Origin: Bacillota bacterium
Lineage (GTDB): Bacteria > Bacillota > UBA4882 > UBA8346
Direction of reading: 5' to 3'
NCBI GenBank assembly: GCA_029776205.1
Contig: JAKOTQ010000034.1
Span: 1-37,527 of the forward strand
Length of the DNA stretch: 37,527 nt
A model generated the notes under the pieces. The model did not search any database and was not told the origin of the DNA. It was given only the letters and a program-made list of their open reading frames with translations. This document shows positions 18,934 to 37,496 of this stretch, one piece after another. Made by a program: the position numbers and the translations under genes. Every line of letters starts with the position of its first letter. The stretch's first letter is position 1.

Positions 18934-19665
18934 TCAGAAATCCGAACGGATCTGTTCCACCGAAATAAGTTTGGAAGCTAATAGCTTTAATGTATCTGTA
19001 CCGGCATTGGTATAAATCGCCTCCAATCGATTAATAACCGGTAGCTTTTCGGCTTCCTTCGCGACGATGATATACTTCACATCTTCCGGCTTAAAGAATA
19101 ACCGGCCAATTTCCGCCAGTTTTCGATGGGCTGCTTCATTCCGTTTCGAATTTAAATATTCTTCCCGGGTTAAAAGATGCGGAGCCGGTTGCGGCACCCA
19201 TCGCCACTCTTTTTCATCATAAAATCGTTTGTGATGGACTTTACCGTCTATATCCACATAACCTTCATAAGGTTTAATATAGCGTAACAGCTCCAAATAG
19301 TCTCCGTGAAGTTCCGGATGCCCAGCGCCGACACCCCCTTTAACCTTTGGCAGAATATGGGCAGCCAAATCCGAACGGGGATGCAAATAAAGAACCGGGT
19401 TGATTCCGCTAGCGATCCCCCATTCCTTCGTCATACCGATGCCGTAACACCCATAAAAGTGAACATGCTCACCCAACTGGGACAGGGGTAAATCACAAAA
19501 GCAAACCATCGCTAATGCCCACTGCCATTTGGAAGAACCGGCTTCTCCAAAAAAACCTGAAAAGTCTTCCAAACAATACCGGGCCGAAAACCCTCTCTCG
19601 AAAACCTGAAAAATATCATCGACGCGCTTGGTAAAATGAAATAACGCCTGGGAACTGATGACCAT
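18934..19665 (-). CDS. AbiGi-like protein (antitoxin component of abortive infection system AbiG)
   Basis: 243 residues beginning SSQALFHFTKRVDDIFQVFE, then a conserved RYCLEDF, LAMVCFCDLPLSQLGEHVHFYG and YGIGMTKEWGIASGINPVLYL. This pattern is the AbiGi family, whose founding member is the antitoxin half of the lactococcal AbiG phage-resistance pair. Here no AbiGii toxin lies next to it: the downstream gene is a GNAT acetyltransferase, and upstream is a 284-bp gap. It may be a stand-alone member with a different job, or the GNAT may be its partner. GGAGG precedes the ATG at 19665. Family call is from pattern recognition. Confidence 0.75.
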   Translation of the reverse strand: MVISSQALFHFTKRVDDIFQVFERGFSARYCLEDFSGFFGEAGSSKWQWALAMVCFCDLPLSQLGEHVHFYGCYGIGMTKEWGIASGINPVLYLHPRSDLAAHILPKVKGGVGAGHPELHGDYLELLRYIKPYEGYVDIDGKVHHKRFYDEKEWRWVPQPAPHLLTREEYLNSKRNEAAHRKLAEIGRLFFKPEDVKYIIVAKEAEKLPVINRLEAIYTNAGTDTLKLLASKLISVEQIRSDF

Positions 19666-20643: not shown

Positions 20644-22542
20644 TCAAATCCTCACACTCATACAAGTCAACGGTATATCCAAACCGCGGACAACCTTTAC
20701 TATACTTTCCGCATCCAACCCGCAATCCCGAAGCAGCTGGTCATTGGAACCATGAGGGACAAATTGATCCGGTATTCCTAGAATTTTCACAGAAAGATTC
20801 GGCAGATTCTGCCGGTTCAAATATTCCAAAACTGCTGTTCCAAATCCACCGGCCGCCACATTCTCCTCAATGGTGATTAAGTGTTGATGAGTAATGGCCA
20901 ATTTGTAAAGTAACGCTTCATCCAATGGTTTTGCGAAACGGGCATTCATCACAGTACACGAGATTCCATCAGATTCCAACCGCTTCGCTGCCTCTAACGC
21001 CGTATTAACCATCGAACCGATAGCGATCAAGGCCACCTTCTCGCCAAAACGGGCAATTTCCCCCCGCCCGATAGCTAACTGTTGATAGGGAGTATTGTAC
21101 CGTATCCCCATTCCGTCCCGTTTCGGATAACGAATAGCCACTGGGCCGTCATGATGAAGGGCGGTAAAGATCATATCTTTCAATTCTGCCTCATCCTTTG
21201 GCGCCATCAAGGTTAAATTAGGAATATGTCTTAAATAAGAAAGATCAAATACGCCATGATGAGTCGGACCATCCTGGCCGACCAGCCCAGCTCGGTCCAA
21301 CATAAACAATACCGGCAGATTTTGCAAACATACATCATGTAGAATCTGGTCATAGGCTCTCTGTAAAAAAGTGGAATAGATGCATACCACCGGCCGGAAT
21401 CCCTTTTTAGCCATCCCCGCGGCCATCGTCACTGCATGCTCTTCAGCGATCCCCACATCAATAAACCGCTCCGGTAATTGCTTGGCAAAATCCAACAAAC
21501 CGGTACCATCAGCCATCGCAGCCGTCACCGCGATAATCCGTTCATCCTGTTTAGCGAGGTTAACCAATGTCTTTCCTACAACTTCGGTATAGGTAACTGC
21601 CTTCGATGATTCTATTTTTCGGCCGGTAGCGACCTGGAAAGGCCCTGTTCCGTGGAATTTTTGTGGGTTGACTTCGGCCAAAGGATAACCTTTTCCCTTA
21701 ACCGTTAACACGTGAACCAGTACCGGTTTATTTAGAGCTTTCACATGAGCAAAACTCTCTTTTAAATCCGCGATATTATGGCCGTCGATAGGACCAACAT
21801 ATGTAATACCGAGATCCTCAAACAACATCCCGGGAATCACCAGATAATTAAGGGCATCCTCAAATTTACGCAGATACTGGACGGTAACCTTACCAACCCG
21901 GGGAATTCGATGCAGCATCTCTTCAACTTCCGCTTTGATTTTGCGGAGACGGGGACTTAGTTTCAACCGGGTAAGATACCGGGAAAGCGCACCCACGTTT
22001 TTGGAGATGGACATCTCATTGTCGTTTAAGACGATAATCAAATCCGTTTGTAACTGACCCAAATGATTTAGCGCCTCAAAGGCCATACCTCCGGTCATGG
22101 ATCCGTCGCCGATAACGGCGATAACTTTATGCTTCTCTCCCTTGAGATCGCGGGCTTTCGCCAAACCAACAGCTGCAGAGATCGAGGTCGAACTGTGGCC
22201 AGTGCCAAATATGTCATGTTCGCTCTCCTCCGGCTTAGGAAAACCGCTCAATCCCTTATATTGGCGCAACGTTTCAAACCGATCCCAACGGCCGGTCACC
22301 ATTTTATGAATATAAGCCTGGTGCCCTACATCCCATACGATCTGATCCCGGGGGCTGTCAAATATCGCATGCAGGGCAAGGGTTAATTCAACCACACCCA
22401 AATTGGGAGCCAGATGGCCTCCAGTCTGTGAAACCGTATGAAGTAGCAATTCCCGGATTTCTTTGGCCAACGCTTCCAATTCTGGTTCAGAGAGCGCTTT
22501 CAGATCTTGCGGCCCGTTAATTTTTTCCAATAGTTTTCCCAT
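20644..22542 (-). CDS. dxs: 1-deoxy-D-xylulose-5-phosphate synthase
   Basis: 632-residue thiamine-diphosphate enzyme that condenses pyruvate and glyceraldehyde 3-phosphate, the first step of the methylerythritol phosphate pathway to isoprenoids. Seen: DVGHQAYIHK (71-80), the ThDP motif GDGSMTGGMAFEALN beginning at 145 with the closing NDNEMSISKNVG, then FIDVGIAEEHAVTMAAG in the pyrimidine-binding domain and the C-terminal transketolase domain. Length is standard. Its start overlaps the upstream oapA gene by 26 bp and has AAAGGAAG upstream. The product supplies isoprenoids for the polyprenyl synthase encoded in the same operon. Confidence 0.96.
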   Translation of the reverse strand: MGKLLEKINGPQDLKALSEPELEALAKEIRELLLHTVSQTGGHLAPNLGVVELTLALHAIFDSPRDQIVWDVGHQAYIHKMVTGRWDRFETLRQYKGLSGFPKPEESEHDIFGTGHSSTSISAAVGLAKARDLKGEKHKVIAVIGDGSMTGGMAFEALNHLGQLQTDLIIVLNDNEMSISKNVGALSRYLTRLKLSPRLRKIKAEVEEMLHRIPRVGKVTVQYLRKFEDALNYLVIPGMLFEDLGITYVGPIDGHNIADLKESFAHVKALNKPVLVHVLTVKGKGYPLAEVNPQKFHGTGPFQVATGRKIESSKAVTYTEVVGKTLVNLAKQDERIIAVTAAMADGTGLLDFAKQLPERFIDVGIAEEHAVTMAAGMAKKGFRPVVCIYSTFLQRAYDQILHDVCLQNLPVLFMLDRAGLVGQDGPTHHGVFDLSYLRHIPNLTLMAPKDEAELKDMIFTALHHDGPVAIRYPKRDGMGIRYNTPYQQLAIGRGEIARFGEKVALIAIGSMVNTALEAAKRLESDGISCTVMNARFAKPLDEALLYKLAITHQHLITIEENVAAGGFGTAVLEYLNRQNLPNLSVKILGIPDQFVPHGSNDQLLRDCGLDAESIVKVVRGLDIPLTCMSVRI

Positions 22543-23116
22543 TCTTCCTTTTGACCTTCCTTGAGCCCGGTTTATTTTTGCGTTTCCTTTTTTTTACATC
22601 AAAGTCGAATATTTTAAACAACGAAAGGAATCGGCCTACAGTAAAAATAATATCATTGGCCCGCTTGATGGCGAAAGATTTCCCTAAAGATTTACCTCCC
22701 ACAGTGCAAGCTGCGATCAAAGCGATCCCTGATGCACTAAGTATATCCTGAAGTCCGTTTAACTTGCCTTGGCACACTTGCAAAATAACACTGGCCACAA
22801 TCGCCCCGCTGATGGTACCGGCAATGTCTCCAATGACATCATTGCAAAAATTAGCTACCTGATCTGCATGACGGATTAAAAAGATAGCTTCTTTAGAACC
22901 GGCTACCTTATCCGCACCCATGGCATGAAAAGGAGCTTCCGTAGCAGCGGTCACAGCCGTACCGATTAAATCAAACAAAATTCCGGTTAAAATCACCGCA
23001 CACAAAATCGCCAACGAAATCCAGATCGCTAATGAAAATTCAAATAAGAACGAAATAACGAGAGAAATCGTAAACGTCAAACACGCAATTTTAGCCGCAT
23101 GGGCCAAATTATCCAT
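22517..23116 (-). CDS. oapA: OLE-associated membrane protein OapA
   Basis: 199 residues with four predicted membrane spans (about 8-26, 30-52, 98-115, 124-146), a conserved-looking middle with VTAATEAPFHAMGADKVAGS, AIFLIRHADQVANFCNDVIG, and a very basic tail (KKRKRKNKPGSRKVKRKNGK) that could touch RNA. In OLE-containing Firmicutes a four-span membrane protein, OapA, is coded right after the OLE RNA gene and before dxs; it binds OLE RNA at the membrane and the complex affects Mg2+ and cold/alcohol stress responses. Both position and topology match here. AGGGGAT precedes the ATG, and the 3' end overlaps dxs by 26 bp. Automatic tools may label it a CorB-like transporter. Confidence 0.75.
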   Translation of the reverse strand: MDNLAHAAKIACLTFTISLVISFLFEFSLAIWISLAILCAVILTGILFDLIGTAVTAATEAPFHAMGADKVAGSKEAIFLIRHADQVANFCNDVIGDIAGTISGAIVASVILQVCQGKLNGLQDILSASGIALIAACTVGGKSLGKSFAIKRANDIIFTVGRFLSLFKIFDFDVKKRKRKNKPGSRKVKRKNGKTIGKN

Positions 23117-23129
23117 GGTTATCCCCTAA

Positions 23130-23829
23130 AAGTTTTCGATAATTCCTTGCCGTAATATTCAAAAACCGACCAATCGGCCGATTTAACATGAACCACTATG
23201 TAGTGGCGATGGTATCCCACCGGGTAAAGATTGTGACTTAGGTCCAGTAGGTTTTCCCACAGGCCTCCCAAGCGTCGCCGCTCAGGCGGTTTCCCTTTAT
23301 GGCCTGTTCGCTTTGTCGCCAAAAGCGAGACTGGATTACCACTGAGTACACACTGCAATCCCCGATGGAACTCAAGGATTTGAATAGCCTAGGAGTTTTC
23401 CTCAACAGGGTAAATCCATCTCCTAGCCTCTTTTGCAGCATTGGGTTTCAAATGGCAAGAGTTGTTTGGTCCTCGAGTAACCGCACAACTTGATACCCAT
23501 ATCCTCCCAAGCCACTCAAGGCAGGCTACGCTGCACCGATACTAAGTAAAATAATCGTACCATATGCAGGTTTACCCCCAAGCCGTAGTTCACGCTCGTT
23601 TTTAAATTAAATCAAAAACGGGATTCCCACGCACTTGGGCCTCCACGGTAGTGGGGTCAACGCCTACATGCCATTGTAGATCGCCCCATCCACCTTAACC
23701 CCCAGCACCAGCTCCCGACTGGGCGTCAGCGGCCAGCACCAGGGACTTCATCGATGTGCCCTTAACGGATTTTTAGGCCCGTCTTCAAAGACGGCTACCC
23801 CGACTAGGATACTACACCATCGCCGTTCT
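23130..23829 (-). ncRNA. ole: OLE RNA (ornate, large, extremophilic RNA)
   Basis: About 700 nt with no convincing gene, directly upstream of the OapA-like gene and downstream of xseA-xseB-polyprenyl synthase-PAP2, the known home of OLE RNA. The region is denser in G+C than the A+T-rich stretch next to it and full of stems read on the minus strand: CCGTCT/AGACGG with loop TTGA near the 5' end, CTACA/TGTAG inside a TGGGG/CCCCA stem (about 23655-23686), and CCACTA/TAGTGG (23193-23206) near the 3' end. Scattered short open frames of 60-80 codons on both strands do not resemble known proteins. OLE RNAs are about 600 nt or longer. Ends are estimated: 5' from the TATAAT box, 3' from the last stem before oapA. 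Confidence 0.78.
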
Positions 23830-23835
23830 CAACCT

Positions 23836-23841
23836 ATTATA
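23836..23841 (-). promoter_or_regulatory. -10 box of the OLE RNA promoter
   Basis: A perfect TATAAT on the minus strand about 7 bp before the first structured bases of the OLE region. The -35 region is weak: TTATGC at 18 bp spacing is the best candidate. It suggests OLE has its own promoter besides read-through from xseA. Confidence 0.5.
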
Positions 23842-24189
23842 ACATATTTTGAAGATACTGCATAAAAAGCTGTTCCCAATAATAACGGTTAATGGAATCT
23901 CTTATGAAAGATAAATCATAGATGGCAGAATTTAGGAGCCAGGAGTCAGAAGCTAAGTTAGTCATTCCTGAAAGAGCTTTTATCAATTTCTGAATAACAG
24001 TTTTATTGCTCCTAAAATCGCTAAATCGCTGCATTTCTGCATAAAAATGGTTAATTATAACTGAAAGATTATAAAAGCAGGAGCGAAATTATTCATTATT
24101 CCCTATCATTTAATACATAGAATACTACGAGATAAAAACCCGGAGAAACCTATCTACTATCTACTGTCTACTGTCTCCTGTCTACTAAA
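23842..24189. other. A+T-rich spacer between PAP2 gene and OLE RNA, with heptamer repeats
   Basis: No gene seen. Holds a tandem array of five 7-bp units (TATCTAC twice, TGTCTAC, TGTCTCC, TGTCTAC; 24151-24185) directly after the PAP2 stop, and a looser heptamer run around AGGAGCC AGGAGTC (23934 onward). A 65-codon frame on the minus strand overlaps this repetitive text and is unlikely to be coding. Confidence 0.6.
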
Positions 24190-24648
24190 TCACTTAAGCA
24201 ACAACAGTGCAACCACAATACCCAAAGCAGCTCCGGCGAAGACTTCGATCGGGGTATGCCCTAAAAGCTCTTTCAATCGTTCCTGATGAAATTCTCCCTC
24301 TTCAAAGACCTCATCCAGCATTTTATTTAAGACAATCGCCTGTTTACTGGCTGCCAACCGGACTCCGGCTGCATCATACATCACGATCAATGCCGTAACC
24401 ACTGACAAAGCTGCGATCGGGCTGTCCCATCCTTCGGTTATTCCAATGGCCACTGTCAGGGAAGATACTAAAGCCGAATGGGAGCTGGGCATCCCCCCTG
24501 CTCCCACAAACCGACGGAAATTAATCCGTTTTTCCTTGATAAAATAGAAAATTCCTTTCAAAAATTGGGCCAAGAACCATGCGGTCAACGATACCCCTAA
24601 AATTTGATTGGCCGCAATTTCTTGCAAAAAAGATCTCAAATCGATCAC
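24190..24648 (-). CDS. Divergent PAP2-family membrane protein (YuiD-like)
   Basis: 152 residues, several membrane spans. It contains the divergent PAP2 (DUF212) signatures GGMPSSHSALVSSLTVAIG, YDAAGVRLAASKQAIVLN and the C-terminal ELLGHTPIEVFAGAALG. The family is related to phosphatidic acid phosphatases; a role as lipid or prenyl pyrophosphate phosphatase is plausible beside isoprenoid genes but not shown. It starts 9 bp after the polyprenyl synthase stop, in the same operon. The OLE RNA gene follows after 350 bp. Confidence 0.88.
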   Translation of the reverse strand: MIDLRSFLQEIAANQILGVSLTAWFLAQFLKGIFYFIKEKRINFRRFVGAGGMPSSHSALVSSLTVAIGITEGWDSPIAALSVVTALIVMYDAAGVRLAASKQAIVLNKMLDEVFEEGEFHQERLKELLGHTPIEVFAGAALGIVVALLLLK

Positions 24649-24657
24649 TCTCTTTAA

Positions 24658-25737
24658 CTAAAATTCCCGATTAACAACATATTTAGCCCAAGTTAACAAC
24701 AGTTCTTTGTATTTCGAGTCCGGAAGGGGCTCGATTTCTTCCACTGCCCGGTTTACAATGCTTTCTGCCAGGTGACGGGTATATTCAACTCCATTATATT
24801 CGATCAACAGTTGTTTTACTTTTTGAATTTCCTCCTCTGTCGCCTCTGGATTGCCCAATGTCTCCACCATGAACTCTTGCTCCTTCGAACTGGCGTTGCT
24901 AAACGCATGGAGCACAATCGTGGTTCGTTTGCCCTCCCGGATGTCAGAATCAACCGCTTTTCCCAGCAATTTTTCATCCCCGATGATTCCCAAGATGTCA
25001 TCCTGTAATTGAAAAGCCGTACCGCATTGCCGGGCAAAACGGCCGATAGCCCGAACCAAACCGTTTTCAGCAGCAGACTGCCCTAACCCGATCGAAGCCC
25101 CGGCAATCCCGCAAAACTCATATAAAACTCCGGTTTTCAGCTCCAACATCGTGAGAACTTCCGTCTCCGTCAATTCGGTAATGGGCTTGGCCGCATACAT
25201 CACATCCAAAGCTTCACCGGCGACCAGTCCATTGGTTAATTCATTTTCCATCCGCCCGACCAGATCCAGGACAACCGGAACCGGAACCCCCAGTTCGATC
25301 GATTCCAACAACAAACGAACCGCCCAGGCATGTTGAAGATCTCCGGTCAAGATCGCCACATTTCTTCCCAAATCTTTAGCTTCATTCGGCTGATAACCCC
25401 AATCCATCGCTTTCAAACGATACTCTTCATGGATCGTTGGAAATCCCCGCCGTTTAGAATCATTATCGATGATATCATCATGAACCAGCGTCCAGGTATG
25501 ATAGACCTCAACGGATGCCGCCGCCAACCGGGCTTGTTCCTCCGTACCTCCGACAGCACCACAACTGAAGAAAACGACTCCAGGCCGAAAACGTTTGGCC
25601 GGCCGACTTAAGTAAGAATACACTGCATCCCGGAGCTGCTCCGGTTTAAAACTTTCTCGATATTTCTCCTGATAAAATACATCATTGACGATCTGCGAAC
25701 AACGTTTGAGCTCATCAAAAAAAACGCTCCGTTCCAA
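24658..25737 (-). CDS. Polyprenyl diphosphate synthase (IspA position)
   Basis: 359-residue trans-isoprenyl diphosphate synthase that condenses isopentenyl units onto allylic diphosphates. The first aspartate motif is HDDIIDND (Asp87, Asp88, Asp91), the second is QLQDDILGIIGDE (Asp246, Asp247). Bacterial farnesyl synthases of the IspA type have a two-residue insertion, DDxxxxD, in the first motif; here it is DDxxD, as in geranylgeranyl and longer-chain enzymes, with Trp82 at the -5 position where a bulky residue limits chain length. It is also about 60 residues longer than IspA. So I hesitate to name it ispA despite the operon position after xseB. It starts 2 bp after xseB. Confidence 0.9.
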   Translation of the reverse strand: MERSVFFDELKRCSQIVNDVFYQEKYRESFKPEQLRDAVYSYLSRPAKRFRPGVVFFSCGAVGGTEEQARLAAASVEVYHTWTLVHDDIIDNDSKRRGFPTIHEEYRLKAMDWGYQPNEAKDLGRNVAILTGDLQHAWAVRLLLESIELGVPVPVVLDLVGRMENELTNGLVAGEALDVMYAAKPITELTETEVLTMLELKTGVLYEFCGIAGASIGLGQSAAENGLVRAIGRFARQCGTAFQLQDDILGIIGDEKLLGKAVDSDIREGKRTTIVLHAFSNASSKEQEFMVETLGNPEATEEEIQKVKQLLIEYNGVEYTRHLAESIVNRAVEEIEPLPDSKYKELLLTWAKYVVNREF

Positions 25738-25739
25738 CC

Positions 25740-26000
25740 CTATTCCTCCTCTGTATTTGTGCGAAACGGGCCGATTTTCGGTTCATTCCCGTCAAATCCC
25801 AATAGGATTTGGAGACGGCCTTCAGCGGCATCCAATTTCCCTGTACAATATTTTGCTAATTTTACGCCTTCTTCAAACAAAGCTAAACTTTCTTCCAAAG
25901 GTAATTCGCCGGTTTCCAAACGGCTGACGATCTCCTCCAAACGGGTAACGGCCTCTTCATAACTGCGTTCTGCCGCATTGCCCTCCATAACTTCACTCAT
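25740..26000 (-). CDS. xseB: Exodeoxyribonuclease VII small subunit
   Basis: 86 residues with the XseB core SYEEAVTRLEEIVSRLETGE, then LPLEESLALFEEGVKLAKYC and the ending KLDAAEGRLQILLG, forming two antiparallel helices that bind the large subunit. The C-terminal tail is acidic. Its ATG overlaps the end of xseA by 8 bp, typical of this gene pair and of balanced translation. Several XseB copies assemble on each XseA in the cytoplasmic complex that degrades single-stranded DNA to oligonucleotides. Confidence 0.94.
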   Translation of the reverse strand: MSEVMEGNAAERSYEEAVTRLEEIVSRLETGELPLEESLALFEEGVKLAKYCTGKLDAAEGRLQILLGFDGNEPKIGPFRTNTEEE

Positions 26001-27207
26001 TGGTATCTGCCTCCTTACTCAGGACCTTACAATGTAGCAAACCTTTGGCCAGCCTTACTTGGATCATCGCGCCGACCTCCACTTGATCGGAATGATTCAA
26101 AAAGCGCCCATCCTCCGTTTGGGCAATAGCATAACCCCGCTCTAATGTGGCCAAAGGACTTAACGCATCCAATTTCCCTAGCAGCCGATAAAAACGCTCC
26201 CTCTTCATTTGAACAGTTTGAATTCCCCAACGGGTTAAGCGTTCGGTCAGCCAATCCAGGTCCTGACGCTTCCGGTTCACTTGGAAATAGGGATCGAGCA
26301 ATACCCGGCTTTGGGTAAGTTTCCGCAAATCCTGCCGCTTGCTCTGAATCGTCCGGCGGACTGACTGATACAGCCGCTGCGTCAACCCATTCAGCGTCCG
26401 GGTTAAACTTTCCTGGTCGGGAACTGCCAATTCCGCTGCAGCAGACGGAGTCGGCGCCCGTAAATCGGCCACAAAGTCGGCAATGGTAAAATCCGTCTCA
26501 TGGCCGACCGCCGATATGATCGGCTTGGGGAAATGGGCAATGGTCCGTGCCAGTTGTTCGTCATTGAAAGCCCACAGTTCTTCAATGGACCCGCCACCCC
26601 GGCCAATGATCACTAAGTCCAAATGCTGAAACTTTGCAGCTTCTCCCAAGGCCTTGATAAGACTGGCAGGAGCTTCCTCCCCCTGTACCAAGGCAGGAAA
26701 TATCAATATATCCAGATTCGGACGGCGGCGGCGCAAGATCTTGATCATATCCTGCACAGCAGCACCCGTTGGAGAGGTAATTAAGCCGATCTTTTGGGGA
26801 AGGGGAGGCAACGGGCGTTTACGCCTGGAATCAAACAAACCTTCCTGTTCCAATTGGCGTTTCAAGCGTTCAAAGGCCTGATACAAATCGCCTAAACCAT
26901 CGGACTCCATCTGGTCCACATAAAGTTGGTAATTGCCGCTCTTTTCGTAGACCGACATCCGCCCGGTCACCGATACAGCCTGTCCGTTTTCAGGCCGAAA
27001 CTTGAGCAGCCTGGCCTGATTACGAAACATCACACAGGACAACCGGGCATTTTCATCCTTTAACGTGAAATATAAATGACCGGAAGAATGGGCCGTAAAA
27101 TTGGAGATTTCGCCTTTAATCCAAATTCCGTCTAAAGAGACATTTTCTTCTATCAAACGCTTTAAAGCATATGTAAGCGCTGTTACCGTCAGATATTGTG
27201 GAGCCAC
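25993..27207 (-). CDS. xseA: Exodeoxyribonuclease VII large subunit
   Basis: 404 residues from the chosen GTG. N-terminal OB fold (YLTVTALTYALKRLIEE followed by IWIKGEISNFTAHSSGHLYFTLKD), catalytic domain with IGLITSPTGAAVQDM, RGGGSIEELWAFNDE and ISAVGHETDFTIADFVADLRAPTPSAAAEL, then a long helical coiled-coil region that carries XseB. I place the start at GTG 27207, which has AAGGAGG five bases upstream; an in-frame ATG eight codons earlier (27231) lacks any ribosome binding site. First gene of the xse-dxs operon. Upstream sequence to 27460 is low in complexity, and I found no convincing promoter. Confidence 0.94.
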   Translation of the reverse strand: MAPQYLTVTALTYALKRLIEENVSLDGIWIKGEISNFTAHSSGHLYFTLKDENARLSCVMFRNQARLLKFRPENGQAVSVTGRMSVYEKSGNYQLYVDQMESDGLGDLYQAFERLKRQLEQEGLFDSRRKRPLPPLPQKIGLITSPTGAAVQDMIKILRRRRPNLDILIFPALVQGEEAPASLIKALGEAAKFQHLDLVIIGRGGGSIEELWAFNDEQLARTIAHFPKPIISAVGHETDFTIADFVADLRAPTPSAAAELAVPDQESLTRTLNGLTQRLYQSVRRTIQSKRQDLRKLTQSRVLLDPYFQVNRKRQDLDWLTERLTRWGIQTVQMKRERFYRLLGKLDALSPLATLERGYAIAQTEDGRFLNHSDQVEVGAMIQVRLAKGLLHCKVLSKEADTNE

Positions 27208-27461
27208 ATTCTCCTCCTTTTCAATAAACATAAATTAGGAGCGCGGAGTAAGTTTCAGGTCCTTCCATTCTAAGTCATAGTGCACAGTGGACGGTTTTGC
27301 TATTCTGAATTTATCTCCATTCAGCTGGTTCCTGTCTCCTTCCCAGTTCCCAACAGCCAGAAACCATTATTCTGTATCCATTTTACACTATTCCATAATC
27401 TTTACCTAAAATCCTGCCAAAATTCGATATATACCGGTAATAGCCGGAAATAAACAGCATC

Positions 27462-32559: not shown

Positions 32560-34083
32560 ATGTCAGAGCTACCAATGTTAAATCGCAAACTTCTCGAAGA
32601 AAAATATCTGGGCACCCCGCTTGCCGATTATCCGGCCGAAATTTTAAATTACCCTGAAAGAGTCATCCAATTTGGTGAGGGTAATTTCTTACGGGCTTTT
32701 GTGGAATGGATGTTCCACAAAACCAACAAAGCTGGATTATTTAAAGGAAGAATCGTTGTTGTTCAGCCTATTGAACAGGGCCGTGTTAAAAACCTCAATG
32801 AACAAGACGGTTTATATACCTTATTGCTCCGCGGAAATCAATCCGGAAAAATCGTCGATGAACGGGAAATTATTCCGGTCATCAGCCGCGGTCTGGAATC
32901 TAGCACTCAATGGGAAGAAGTGCTCAAATGCGCTGAAAATCCGGAGATCGAATACTTCGTTTCCAATACCACTGAAGCCGGTATCGCTTACCGTGCGGAA
33001 GACAAACTCACCGACACACCGCCGGTATCCTTCCCCGGTAAACTTACAGTTTATCTGTATCGTCGTTTTCAACATTTTCAAGGGGATCCTTCCAAAGGAA
33101 TGGTTATTATCCCTTGCGAATTGATCGATCGGAACGGCGACAACCTCAAAAAGATCGTTCTGCAATATGCTAAAGAATGGGGGCTTCCTGAGGCATTTTC
33201 GACTTGGGTTGATCAATCCAACCATTTCGTAAACACGTTGGTAGACCGGATCGTCACCGGATATCCCTTTAAAGAAGCAGCTGCTCTCGAAGAGGAATTT
33301 GGTTATCATGATCAAAACCTCAACACCGGCGAAATCTTCCATCTGTGGGTTATCGAAGGCGATGCCGCTCTTTCCGAACGTTTGCCTTTCCACAAAGTAG
33401 GCCTCAATGTCAAATGGGTGGATGATCTTACGCCCTATCGTACCCGTAAAGTACGGATTTTAAATGGAGCCCACACTTCAACGGTGGCAGTAGCTTGCTT
33501 ATCCGGTATCGAATTCGTCCGGGATGCCATCACCGATGAATCCGTCGGCAAATTCCTGCAGGACGTATTGTTTGAAGAGATCATTCCGACGCTGGACTCT
33601 GATGAGAACGAATTGAAAACCTTTGCCAATGATGTACTGGATCGGTTCAACAACCCGTTCATCGATCATAAATGGTTTGATATCGCATTAAACTCCACCT
33701 CTAAATTTGAAACCCGGGTTATGCCGTCTCTCCGCCGTTATGTAGAGCAAAACGGCCAACTTCCGAAGAAATTAACCTTCTCACTGGCTGCCTTAATCGC
33801 TCTCTATCGCGGTACTGAGATCCGCAACGGTAAACTGGTGGGTATGCGCAGCGGCAAAGAATACTTTGTCCAGGATGATTCAGATACCTTGGAATTCTTC
33901 CGGGATAACTGGTCCCAATACGAAGCCGGCCAACAAAACATTGAACAGTTGGTGAAAAACGTATTAAATCGTTTCTGGGCTGACTTTACAACCCAAAACC
34001 CGCAACTCGTTACCGACGTAGCGAATTATGTTGAGGTTATCATCAACGCCGGTATTACGCCCGGATTGCAAAAATGTTCATAA
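32560..34083 (+). CDS. uxaB: Tagaturonate reductase (altronate oxidoreductase)
   Basis: 507-residue member of the mannitol/polyol dehydrogenase family that interconverts D-tagaturonate and D-altronate with NADH. Seen: the nucleotide-binding start VIQFGEGNFLRAFVEWMF, then FVSNTTEAGI, LIDRNGDNL, and the family lysine/asparagine block KVRILNGAHTSTVAVACLSG. UxaB is preferred to fructuronate reductase UxuB because of these motifs and because uxaE and uxaA follow. AAGGAGG lies upstream of the ATG. It is probably regulated by the adjacent AraC protein. Confidence 0.92.
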   Translation: MSELPMLNRKLLEEKYLGTPLADYPAEILNYPERVIQFGEGNFLRAFVEWMFHKTNKAGLFKGRIVVVQPIEQGRVKNLNEQDGLYTLLLRGNQSGKIVDEREIIPVISRGLESSTQWEEVLKCAENPEIEYFVSNTTEAGIAYRAEDKLTDTPPVSFPGKLTVYLYRRFQHFQGDPSKGMVIIPCELIDRNGDNLKKIVLQYAKEWGLPEAFSTWVDQSNHFVNTLVDRIVTGYPFKEAAALEEEFGYHDQNLNTGEIFHLWVIEGDAALSERLPFHKVGLNVKWVDDLTPYRTRKVRILNGAHTSTVAVACLSGIEFVRDAITDESVGKFLQDVLFEEIIPTLDSDENELKTFANDVLDRFNNPFIDHKWFDIALNSTSKFETRVMPSLRRYVEQNGQLPKKLTFSLAALIALYRGTEIRNGKLVGMRSGKEYFVQDDSDTLEFFRDNWSQYEAGQQNIEQLVKNVLNRFWADFTTQNPQLVTDVANYVEVIINAGITPGLQKCS

Positions 34084-34156
34084 ATTGACCAAGTTTAACC
34101 ATGTTTAAACTATAAACTGCTGATAGTTCACAAAACTTATTACCTTCTTGTACAAA

Positions 34157-34199
34157 AATCCCCTTAATTATACTATAATTAAGGGGATTAAGTTTTTTT
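34157..34199 (+). terminator. Terminator or attenuator between uxaB and uxaE
   Basis: Perfect 15-bp stem AATCCCCTTAATTAT/ATAATTAAGGGGATT (34157-34171 with 34175-34189), then AAGTTTTTTT. A second hairpin, CCAGGA/TCCTGG (34203-34222 region), follows at once, before the uxaE ribosome binding site. With uxaE only 160 bp after uxaB, this may set the level of read-through. Confidence 0.8.
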
Positions 34200-34246
34200 C
34201 AACCAGGAGAAACTTTTTCCTGGATACAAAAAGGAGGGTAAAGTAC

Positions 34247-35782
34247 GTGAACACATTAGAATCATTCATCCAACTGATCGCAGAAGGTACACCCCTTGTC
34301 GATTTGAAAGCAGCCGCTGAAAATCGTCCGGAGTTTAAAGGTATTTACCCAAACTCCATCCATCAACATGAACAATCGATCTTGTTCATCTTTAAAGGTG
34401 AGTCTGTCAAGAAATTGATCATCGTCAATGACGGCTCGCCTCTTTTTACAGAATTCAGCGGTAATCTTTTGAATTCTCCATCCGGCTTAAAAATTAAAGA
34501 AGTCGATTTAAACGTAGAAAACAGTTTGGTTCTTCGGAAATATTTCCCCTTTACCAATCCGGTTTCCCTGGCTTCTGCTCCCGCTACTTTTGGCGTCGGC
34601 GACCGGTTGGGACTGGCTTCCGGCGGGCACATCCGTGTTCTCCGAAACAGCAAAGCAAAACCCATTTTAGCCCAACAATCCATTCGTGAATTAAACTTAA
34701 CGGGACGGACCTACCCCGCAGTTTTAGCTGATGCCGTTTGGGCTGTTTTCCAAGAAGATTACCAAGGCGGTTTTGGGGCGGACGGCGATCACTTGAAGAC
34801 TCCCGCTGAAGTCAAGATGGCTTTGGAAGACGGGTTTACCATGATCACGCTGGACTGTTCGGAACATATCAACAACGTTTCAGCAGAAGATACTGAAAAA
34901 ATCAATGCCTTATATGAGCAAATCACTTCCGAACAACGGGCGAAACTGGAGCAAACTTTTTTAAATAAAGAATTTAAACTCAAAAGCGGTTTGACTCTCT
35001 CTTTCTCCCCTGAAAAGCTTAAACTGAATATTGTCATCTATCAAAAGGCCATCAATTTTGCCATTCAAATTTATAACGATCTGATTCGAACCAGTCCACA
35101 CCAGGTTGATTTTGAAGTCTCCATCGACGAAACCTTGACTCCCACGGATCCGGCGTCCCATTACTTTGTTGCTGCCCAGCTTATTGAAGCCGGCGTCAAA
35201 GTAAACAGTATGGCACCGCGTTTCTGCGGCGAATTCCAAAAGGGAATCGATTACATCGGAAGCCTTGCCCAATTTGAGAAAGAGTATAAAGAACACCAAC
35301 AAATTGCCGATCATTTCGGCTACAAACTCAGCATCCACTCAGGCAGTGATAAATTTAGCGTCTTCCCTATCATCGGCCGGGAAAGCAAAGGCCATATCCA
35401 CGTTAAAACCGCCGGTACCAACTGGCTGGAAGCTGTCCGGGTGATTATTGAAGCTGATCCTGCCTTGTATCGTGAGATTCACAAATTTGCCCTGGAAAAT
35501 CTGGCTGAGGCCAAAAAATACTACCACATTTCCGCTGATATGAACCGGGTGCCGAATATCGATACTCTATCCGACGCTGAACTGAAAGATCTGATGAACC
35601 AAAACGATGCTCGCCAACTGATTCACATTACCTACGGTCTGATCTTACAAGCTAAGGATTCCGCTGGTAACAGCCGTTTCCGGGATCGGATCTACGCCTG
35701 CCTCCACCAGCATGAGGACCTTTACTATGAAATGCTCCAAAAGCATATCGGTAAACACCTGGAACTGTTGAACCTGATGTAA
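34247..35782 (+). CDS. uxaE: Tagaturonate/fructuronate epimerase
   Basis: 511 residues matching the tagaturonate epimerase family, which interconverts D-fructuronate and D-tagaturonate at C4 and so joins the glucuronate and galacturonate routes. Visible are FGVGDRLGLASGGHIRVLR near residue 120, TPAEVKMALEDGFTMITLDC and a following SEH, an SIHSGSDKFSVFPIIGR block, and HVKTAGTNWLEAVRV. Metal-binding His and Asp residues are expected among them. I use GTG 34247, with AAGGAGGG upstream; a 33-codon extension would run through the attenuator hairpin. A terminator follows, so uxaA is likely a separate unit. Confidence 0.9.
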   Translation: MNTLESFIQLIAEGTPLVDLKAAAENRPEFKGIYPNSIHQHEQSILFIFKGESVKKLIIVNDGSPLFTEFSGNLLNSPSGLKIKEVDLNVENSLVLRKYFPFTNPVSLASAPATFGVGDRLGLASGGHIRVLRNSKAKPILAQQSIRELNLTGRTYPAVLADAVWAVFQEDYQGGFGADGDHLKTPAEVKMALEDGFTMITLDCSEHINNVSAEDTEKINALYEQITSEQRAKLEQTFLNKEFKLKSGLTLSFSPEKLKLNIVIYQKAINFAIQIYNDLIRTSPHQVDFEVSIDETLTPTDPASHYFVAAQLIEAGVKVNSMAPRFCGEFQKGIDYIGSLAQFEKEYKEHQQIADHFGYKLSIHSGSDKFSVFPIIGRESKGHIHVKTAGTNWLEAVRVIIEADPALYREIHKFALENLAEAKKYYHISADMNRVPNIDTLSDAELKDLMNQNDARQLIHITYGLILQAKDSAGNSRFRDRIYACLHQHEDLYYEMLQKHIGKHLELLNLM

Positions 35783-35802
35783 AAATACCGTTCATCATCA
35801 AA

Positions 35803-35835
35803 GGGCTCACCCTCCTTCGACGGTGAGCTCTTTTT
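35803..35835 (+). terminator. Terminator after uxaE
   Basis: Nine-bp stem GGGCTCACC/GGTGAGCTC (35803-35811 with 35822-35830, one wobble) followed by five T. The 35836-35992 stretch beyond is A+T-rich and probably holds the uxaA promoter, though no clear boxes were seen. Confidence 0.82.
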
Positions 35836-35992
35836 AACTGCCTGAATAACTAAAAAACCTGATTTACCAAATAAATTAACATTTTTTCAATATCCTTCTA
35901 AAGGGAAAATAAGCGTATACCTCGAATTATTAAAAATTAATAAATTTCAGCAAATTGCAAACTTTAAAAACATAAGAAAATGGTGATTAACA

Positions 35993-37496
35993 ATGAGCAA
36001 TGTACTGCAAATCCGGCCCGAAGATAATGTGGCCATCGCCCTGGCTCCGATTTCAAAAGGCACTGTCCTGAAAATTGGCAACCAGGAGATCGAAGTCAAA
36101 CAAGACATTCCCAATGGACATAAAGTGGCACTCCGTGATATCGCTCCGAGTGAACACGTGCTCCGCTATGGTTATTCCATTGGCTTAGCCAGCAGTCCGA
36201 TTAGCAAAGGTGAATGGGTACATACCCATAACCTTCATACCGGTCTCAAAGACAAGCTGGAATATACTTATAATCCAACGCCACAGCGGGCAGCCCAACC
36301 GGAGGGCCCCATCCCCACTTTCCTGGGTTACCGCCGCCATGACGGCCAGGTAGGTATCAGAAATGAAATTTGGCTCATTAATATGGTGGGATGTACCAAC
36401 CGGCAAAGCCAACGCTTAGCCCAAATGGCCACCCAAAAATATCAATCCTTAATCAATGACGGCATCATCGACGGATTCTATGATTTTGCCCATCCCTACG
36501 GCTGCTCCCAGTTGGGGGATGACCTGGAAAACACCCAGAAAATTTTGGCCGGATTTGTCAAACACCCGAATGCAGCCGGAGTTCTGGTTATCGGTTTAGG
36601 CTGTGAAAACAACCGGCTGGATGACTTTAAACACTTTATCGAAGGCTATGATCCGAACCGGGTGAAGTTTATGGTCCTCCAAGAGGTTGAGGATGAATTT
36701 GCCACCGGTATGGAGCTCCTGGATCAACTGGTCCAGTTTGCTTCTACCTTCAAGCAGGAACCCATCCCGGTTTCCGAGTTGAAAATTGGCCTCAAATGCG
36801 GCGGATCCGATGGATTCTCCGGAATCACCGGCAACCCCTTAGTCGGCCATGTTGCCGATAAACTTATCAGCTACGGCGGTACTGCCGTTCTCACCGAAGT
36901 TCCGGAAATGTTCGGTGCAGAAACCATTTTGATGAACCGGGCCAAAGATGAAGAAATCTTCAAAAAGACCGTTTCCCTTATTAATGACTTTAAAGATTAT
37001 TTCATCAGAAACGGCCAGGAAGTGTATGAAAACCCCCCCCGGCAATAAAGACGGCGGCATCACCACTCTGGAGGAGAAATCCTTGGGCTGTACCCAAAAA
37101 GGCGGTACCAGCACAGTGATGGATGTCTTAAAATATGGTGAACGAATTAAAACCAACGGTTTGAACCTGTTAGAAGGCCCGGGCAATGACATTGTCTCAA
37201 CCACAGCCATGACCGCTGCCGGTGCCCATATCATCCTCTTCACCACCGGACGGGGTAACCCGATGGGAGCTGCAGTTCCCACCATTAAAGTATCGACCAA
37301 TTCCGGACTGGCACAGAAGAAAGCCAACTGGATTGACTTTAATGCCGGTCAACTGTTGGAAGGCGTCTCCATGGAAGCCTTGACGGATCAATTCTTCGAA
37401 TATCTGTTGAAGGTTGCCAGCAAACAGGAGCTGACCAAAAATGAGATCAACGGATATCGGGATATCGCTATTTTCAAGACCGGAGTTACGTTGTAA
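35993..37496 (+). pseudogene. uxaA: Altronate dehydratase, split by a frameshift at a C8 tract
   Basis: Dehydrates D-altronate to 2-keto-3-deoxy-D-gluconate. Residues 1-90 form the SAF-type domain (IRPEDNVAIALAPI). The large catalytic domain follows with RRHDGQVGIRNEIWL, VGCTNRQSQRLAQ, FAHPYGCSQLGDD and LKCGGSDGFSGITGNPLVG. At 37033-37040 a run of eight C shifts the frame, and translation ends after ENPPRQ at 37048. The next frame continues the protein as PPGNKDGGITTLEEKSLGC and ends normally at 37496. Seven or ten C would restore one protein of about 500 residues, the usual size. Cause unknown: sequencing error, real mutation, or slippage. GGTGATT precedes the ATG. Confidence 0.88.

Follow-up and report, generated by a model that had tools for sequence, protein, structure and literature searches.

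The window, a 37,527-nt stretch of DNA from a Bacillota bacterium (contig JAKOTQ010000034.1), carries the gene for a full-length OLE RNA, immediately followed by oapA, in a genome that also encodes OapB, a YbxF/OapC candidate, and bS21. We put the probability of this reading, including a ribonucleoprotein (RNP) mechanism as published for Halalkalibacterium halodurans, at roughly 0.98. The identities of the RNA and of OapA, the presence of the partner proteins, the conservation of the ole promoter, and the self-complementarity of the L9.3 loop were all observed directly in our analyses. OLE is a membrane-associated RNA and, among structured bacterial RNAs whose biochemical function is not known, one of the largest; each lineage with a complete partner set therefore helps to tell which features are essential. 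The locus is a clear further example of a known system rather than a new kind of system, and it does not by itself solve OLE function.

The structured block is a full-length OLE RNA

A sequence-only reading of the window had pointed to a structured noncoding block of about 700 nt between a PAP2 gene and a membrane-protein gene and had identified this block as OLE RNA. Both points were borne out by the Rfam covariance model RF01071, which matched positions 23836-23193 of the minus strand over model positions 1-616 without truncation (488.7 bits, E = 1.4e-140; the gathering score is 50 bits), and by a predicted fold of -251.5 kcal/mol versus -211.6 kcal/mol in dinucleotide shuffles (z = -4.0). 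The core of the RNA is in near-perfect agreement with the conserved model positions. Furthermore, P7, P8, and a long P9 are all aligned and the RNA has the length of about 600 nt that marks the full-length class, to which we assigned it by anatomy because the published 390-bit cutoff belongs to a different model. That the block is OLE RNA is beyond doubt. Searching the whole 2.73-Mb genome with RF01071 revealed a single copy, and an Rfam scan detected no second family above threshold anywhere in the window.

A -10 box occupies positions 23841-23836, so that the first 7 nt or so of the Rfam match would consist of this box and spacer and the RNA would start near 23829, in agreement with the upper coordinate originally given for the block. 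The likely extent of the mature RNA and its terminal helix are as follows.

About 23829 to about 23206, minus strand: OLE RNA, likely mature transcript of about 624 nt (RF01071; 5' bound from the -10 box, 3' bound from the end of P1)
23206-23214, minus strand: 3' strand of the P1 terminal helix, ACCAUCGCC, pairing with GGCGAUGGU at about 23824-23816

Pairing between GGCGAUGGU and ACCAUCGCC is preserved despite sequence change in most of the window's family.

Genes surrounding OLE

OLE and its named neighbors all lie on the minus strand in the order xseA, xseB, polyprenyl synthase, DUF212/PAP2, OLE, oapA, and dxs, which is largely identical at related OLE loci.

25993-27231, minus strand: xseA, exonuclease VII large subunit (PF02601, PF13742)
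25740-26000, minus strand: xseB, exonuclease VII small subunit (PF02609)
24658-25737, minus strand: polyprenyl synthase (PF00348, 160.6 bits)
24190-24648, minus strand: DUF212, divergent PAP2 family membrane protein (PF02681, 168.5 bits)
22517-23116, minus strand: oapA, OLE-associated protein A, a 199-aa membrane protein (phmmer homologues, invariant residues, Foldseek)
20644-22542, minus strand: dxs, 1-deoxy-D-xylulose-5-phosphate synthase (TIGR00204, 860 bits)

Pfam and NCBIfam matches for xseA, xseB, polyprenyl synthase, and dxs agree with the xseA/xseB/polyprenyl synthase/oapA/dxs neighborhood that the sequence-only reading had recognized. Its PAP2 gene is indeed of PAP2 type and belongs more precisely to DUF212, the 'Divergent PAP2 family' (PF02681). 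Its placement of OLE inside an xse-isoprenoid operon holds for position, with the qualification that ole also has its own conserved promoter. The oapA ATG lies 76 nt past the end of the OLE model match, and oapA overlaps dxs by 26 nt (22517-22542).

Several other features of these loci and of the window were recorded. A short tandem array with a 7-nt unit CTATCTA, or a 14-nt unit TCTACTATCTACTG, occupies 24150-24187 within the 354-nt gap between DUF212 and OLE. At four other OLE-oapA loci (L049, L060, L061, and L066), a dxs match was absent from the approximately 900 nt past oapA. Two genes downstream of dxs, a lone AbiGi-family protein is encoded (18934-19665, minus strand; PF10899, putative abortive phage resistance antitoxin, 98.6 bits). 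On the plus strand, 32560-37496 holds a probable hexuronate pathway cluster with an AraC-type regulator upstream, a probable altronate/tagaturonate oxidoreductase, a UxaE tagaturonate epimerase (PF16257, 657 bits), and an altronate dehydratase-like gene apparently in two overlapping frames near 36948-37048, a possible frameshift.

The gene 3' of OLE encodes an OapA homologue

Since Pfam and NCBIfam searches gave no family for the 199-aa protein, its identity rests on homology and synteny. A phmmer search with this protein found a homologue in about 60 OLE/oapA loci, and a homologue lay directly 3' of OLE in all 37 loci that had been fetched by the OLE model alone. Across 58 aligned sequences (the window protein and 57 OLE-adjacent homologues), D93, G96, D97, and K146 are invariant and K142 is conserved at 98%. 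These residues include the DxxxD motif that is distinctive of OapA (PMC11332333), which reads DVIGD at residues 93-97 of the window protein.

The AlphaFold2 model (medium confidence; mean pLDDT 79, pTM 0.65) predicted four long membrane helices (residues 2-26, 31-57, 84-115, and 120-151), and the last 34 residues contain 15 K/R versus 2 D/E. With the 26-nt overlap, these features match the four-span, basic-tailed membrane protein overlapping dxs that had been described from the sequence. In a Foldseek search with the predicted model, the best six matches were all CNNM proteins, led by MtCorB (7m1t; probability 1.00, TM up to 0.55) at a weak E value (0.027), which agrees with an already published comparison of OapA and CorB. 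The proposal that this protein is the OapA partner of OLE is thus well supported by OLE-adjacent homologues, the retained DxxxD, and a CNNM-like predicted fold.

A conserved promoter precedes OLE and a terminator-like hairpin precedes oapA

Two putative expression signals flank the OLE RNA, neither of which was reported by a scan for generic consensus promoters and terminators.

23836-23844, minus strand: extended -10 promoter element of ole, TGTTATAAT, with the TATAAT box at 23841-23836 (TGnTATAAT conservation)
23161-23180, minus strand: terminator-like hairpin, CGGCCGATTGGTCG followed by GTTTTT, between OLE and oapA (5 bp, -5.6 kcal/mol)

In 40 of 50 distinct loci, the 80 nt preceding the OLE 5' element contained TGnTATAAT, compared to 9 of 452 control stretches of the same loci and 0 of 200 upstream controls, and a TTGA-like -35 element was enriched at the usual spacing from the OLE -10 element. 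This conserved promoter of its own indicates that OLE is not merely an operon passenger. A promoter of ole has already been reported in H. halodurans (PMC9723947), and we accordingly dropped the idea of presenting it as an unreported feature; our addition is the survey of its conservation, not the promoter itself. Separately, 8 of 100 control stretches from the OLE-oapA region, lying between +720 and +880 relative to the OLE 5' element, also contained TGnTATAAT, which hints that some lineages have a second promoter close to oapA.

The element at 23180-23161 is a weak hairpin with a U tract and may be regarded as a putative terminator. Counterparts with different sequences occur in several members of the window's family. 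Such hairpins are not general, being present at 8 of 31 OLE loci versus 1 to 4 (about 2) in shuffles, and we do not claim the hairpin as a family-wide feature.

The L9.3 loop has a new self-complementary form

The OLE RNA of Clostridium acetobutylicum forms a dimer as visualized by cryo-EM, partly via a symmetric L9.3 kissing loop, and covariation of this loop among GGCC, GAUC, and AGCU has been published (PMC12286853). We located the corresponding site in the window.

23472-23477, minus strand: self-complementary hexamer CUCGAG in the L9.3 apical loop, the site of the published kissing loop (loop palindrome survey)

Among 67 distinct OLE RNAs with a long P9, 52 contained a 6-nt palindrome in L9.3, versus 11.9 +/- 2.9 in shuffled sequences. 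The loop centers were GGCC in 52, UGCA in 7, and UCGA, AGCU, GCGC, and CGCG in 1 each, with none in the remaining 4; these sequences are related, so the counts do not represent independent events. All seven UGCA-centered loops came from the window's family. P9 was too short to form an L9.3 loop in 18 of 85 distinct OLE loci. Comparing CUCGAG in the window with CUGCAG in sister genera, the two central bases are swapped and self-pairing is kept. Due to the earlier report of GGCC, GAUC, and AGCU (PMC12286853), we dropped L9.3 covariation as a discovery of our own; as judged from its sequence, CUCGAG appears to be a new form of L9.3 self-complementarity that extends the published covariation.

The proposed bS21 site of P6 is rarely conserved

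In H. halodurans, a CCUCCU anti-Shine-Dalgarno mimic in P6 of OLE has been proposed as the bS21 site (PMC12054373). This motif is absent from P6 in the window, where CCCCACUACC is found instead. Among 69 OLE RNAs with a readable P6 site, only 2 carried CCUCCU, indicating that the exact mimic is not general, and 15, including those 2, carried CCUCC. The conserved G-C pairs of P6 may yet play a part. We consider it possible, at somewhat less than even odds, that anti-Shine-Dalgarno mimicry is local to some lineages and that here and in most others bS21 reads another feature of P6 or stays outside the complex, although the genome encodes bS21 along with the other partners. Retention of the promoter without the CCUCCU mimic bears on which of the published mechanisms are general.

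OLE partner proteins are encoded elsewhere in the genome

The sequence-only reading had suggested looking for oapB and oapC outside the window, and the genome yielded OapB and a candidate for OapC. An early impression that OapB was missing, obtained when the Pfam KOW model matched rplX and nusG only, was overturned by a three-sequence profile of KOW proteins encoded between map and infA. This profile, itself checked against PDB 7k9b, picked out a KOW protein of 102 aa (L141:1459-1767, minus strand) whose gene lies between map and infA and whose best PDB match was 7k9b, 'OLE-associated protein B' (E = 3e-10). Between rpoC and rpsL, a 90-aa L7Ae-like protein is encoded (L026:1468-1740) with YbxF/L7Ae-like chains 3v7e and 4lck as best PDB matches (E = 2.3e-8). 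Its score of 71.8 is below the NCBIfam cutoff of 113, and its assignment as a YbxF/OapC candidate therefore leans on gene position; a YlxQ paralogue is encoded separately. The genome also encodes bS21 and one 439-aa CNNM protein of MpfA-type length that is separate from OapA. OLE-bearing species have been reported to have 'no more than one' MpfA, with which this genome agrees.

OLE is common in the order and phylum of the window

The OLE family has hundreds to thousands of known members. We found OLE in 8 of 10 genomes of the window's order, including all 5 that are at least 90% complete, and in 284 of 398 sampled genomes of the phylum, making the window OLE ordinary for its group. One genome of the same genus without OLE (G005) also lacked OapA, and the second exception in the order (G008) contained OapA only as a fragment at a contig end; both absences look like assembly gaps rather than losses. 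OLE, oapA, and dxs also occurred together at two loci (L011 and L014) in metagenome-assembled genomes labeled Desulfovibrio sp. These bins are probably misassigned or contaminated, given that almost all other OLE RNAs come from Bacillota.

Alternative explanations for the locus

The block immediately precedes oapA-dxs, and a terminator-like hairpin separates it from oapA; this leader-like layout might suggest some large structured RNA other than OLE, or a riboswitch or long leader serving oapA-dxs. The full-length OLE covariance match (E = 1.4e-140) already refutes this explanation, and the separate conserved promoter, the closed P1 ends, and the lack of a match to any other Rfam family in the window further argue against it, leaving it practically no probability. 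A decayed OLE gene and a defunct RNP in the window's lineage would account for P8 and P9 sequences that depart from the consensus, a loop insertion near P7/P8, and the missing CCUCCU mimic. However, the conserved core is near perfect, a compensatory change preserves the L9.3 palindrome and P1, OapA is intact with its invariant residues, the OapB, YbxF/OapC candidate, and bS21 genes are all present, and OLE is kept in 5 of 5 order genomes of at least 90% completeness, so that decay is scarcely credible.

It is also conceivable that OLE in the window's family is only a cis-regulatory RNA, such as an attenuator of oapA-dxs acting via the terminator-like hairpin, considering that several family members have a hairpin and U tract in the OLE-oapA interval. 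We view an exclusively cis-acting OLE as very unlikely because this hairpin is weak (5 bp) and is found at 8 of 31 OLE loci versus about 2 in shuffles, we found no antiterminator, and the OLE RNA of H. halodurans is known to act as a discrete and abundant molecule (PMC9723947). The two roles, in cis and as an RNP, are compatible and could coexist.

A model for the OLE RNP and comparison with known systems

Our preferred reading is an OLE RNP of the H. halodurans type. In this model, OLE RNA most likely has two sources, its own extended -10 promoter and transcription of the xse-dxs operon. The P1 helix would close the RNA, and some transcripts may be terminated or processed ahead of oapA. Contacts at L4, at the P5/P6 loops, and at the self-complementary L9.3 may join two RNAs into a dimer, with OapA anchoring it at the membrane. 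Helped by OapB and OapC, the OLE RNP may then act as a stress- and divalent-metal-responsive particle, as proposed for H. halodurans. For dimerization, membrane docking, and a physiological role in the window organism, we draw on the literature, in which stress from cold, alcohol, Mg2+, or carbon source is described as eliciting a response of a membrane-anchored OLE-OapA RNP (PMC12265935).

The protein encoded 3' of OLE resembles the OapA family in having four long predicted membrane helices, the DxxxD motif, basic residues, and a gene directly after ole, and we saw no departure from this family. Its predicted fold compares best with that of the CNNM Mg2+ transporters (MpfA/CorB), with MtCorB (7m1t) as the best match. 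Unlike these transporters, OapA has no room in its 199 aa for the CBS and CorC domains and no PF01595 match, and it retains the DxxxD that is absent from CNNM domains.

Compared to H. halodurans, the window shares the full-length OLE architecture of about 620 nt, the xseA/xseB/polyprenyl synthase/oapA/dxs neighbors, an ole promoter, and genes for OapA, OapB, YbxF/OapC (a candidate here), and bS21. It differs in lacking the CCUCCU mimic in P6, in carrying an AU-rich insertion within a loop of the P7/P8 region, in the terminator-like hairpin before oapA, and in an L9.3 loop that is CUCGAG rather than GGCC centered. The window sequence also contains the elements of the C. acetobutylicum OLE dimer, namely an A-rich L4, the P5/P6 loops, and a self-complementary L9.3. 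Whereas GGCC, GAUC, and AGCU are the L9.3 tetranucleotides named in the paper on that dimer, the window has UCGA and its sister genera have UGCA, and L9.3 self-complementarity at the window locus has survived replacement of the loop center.
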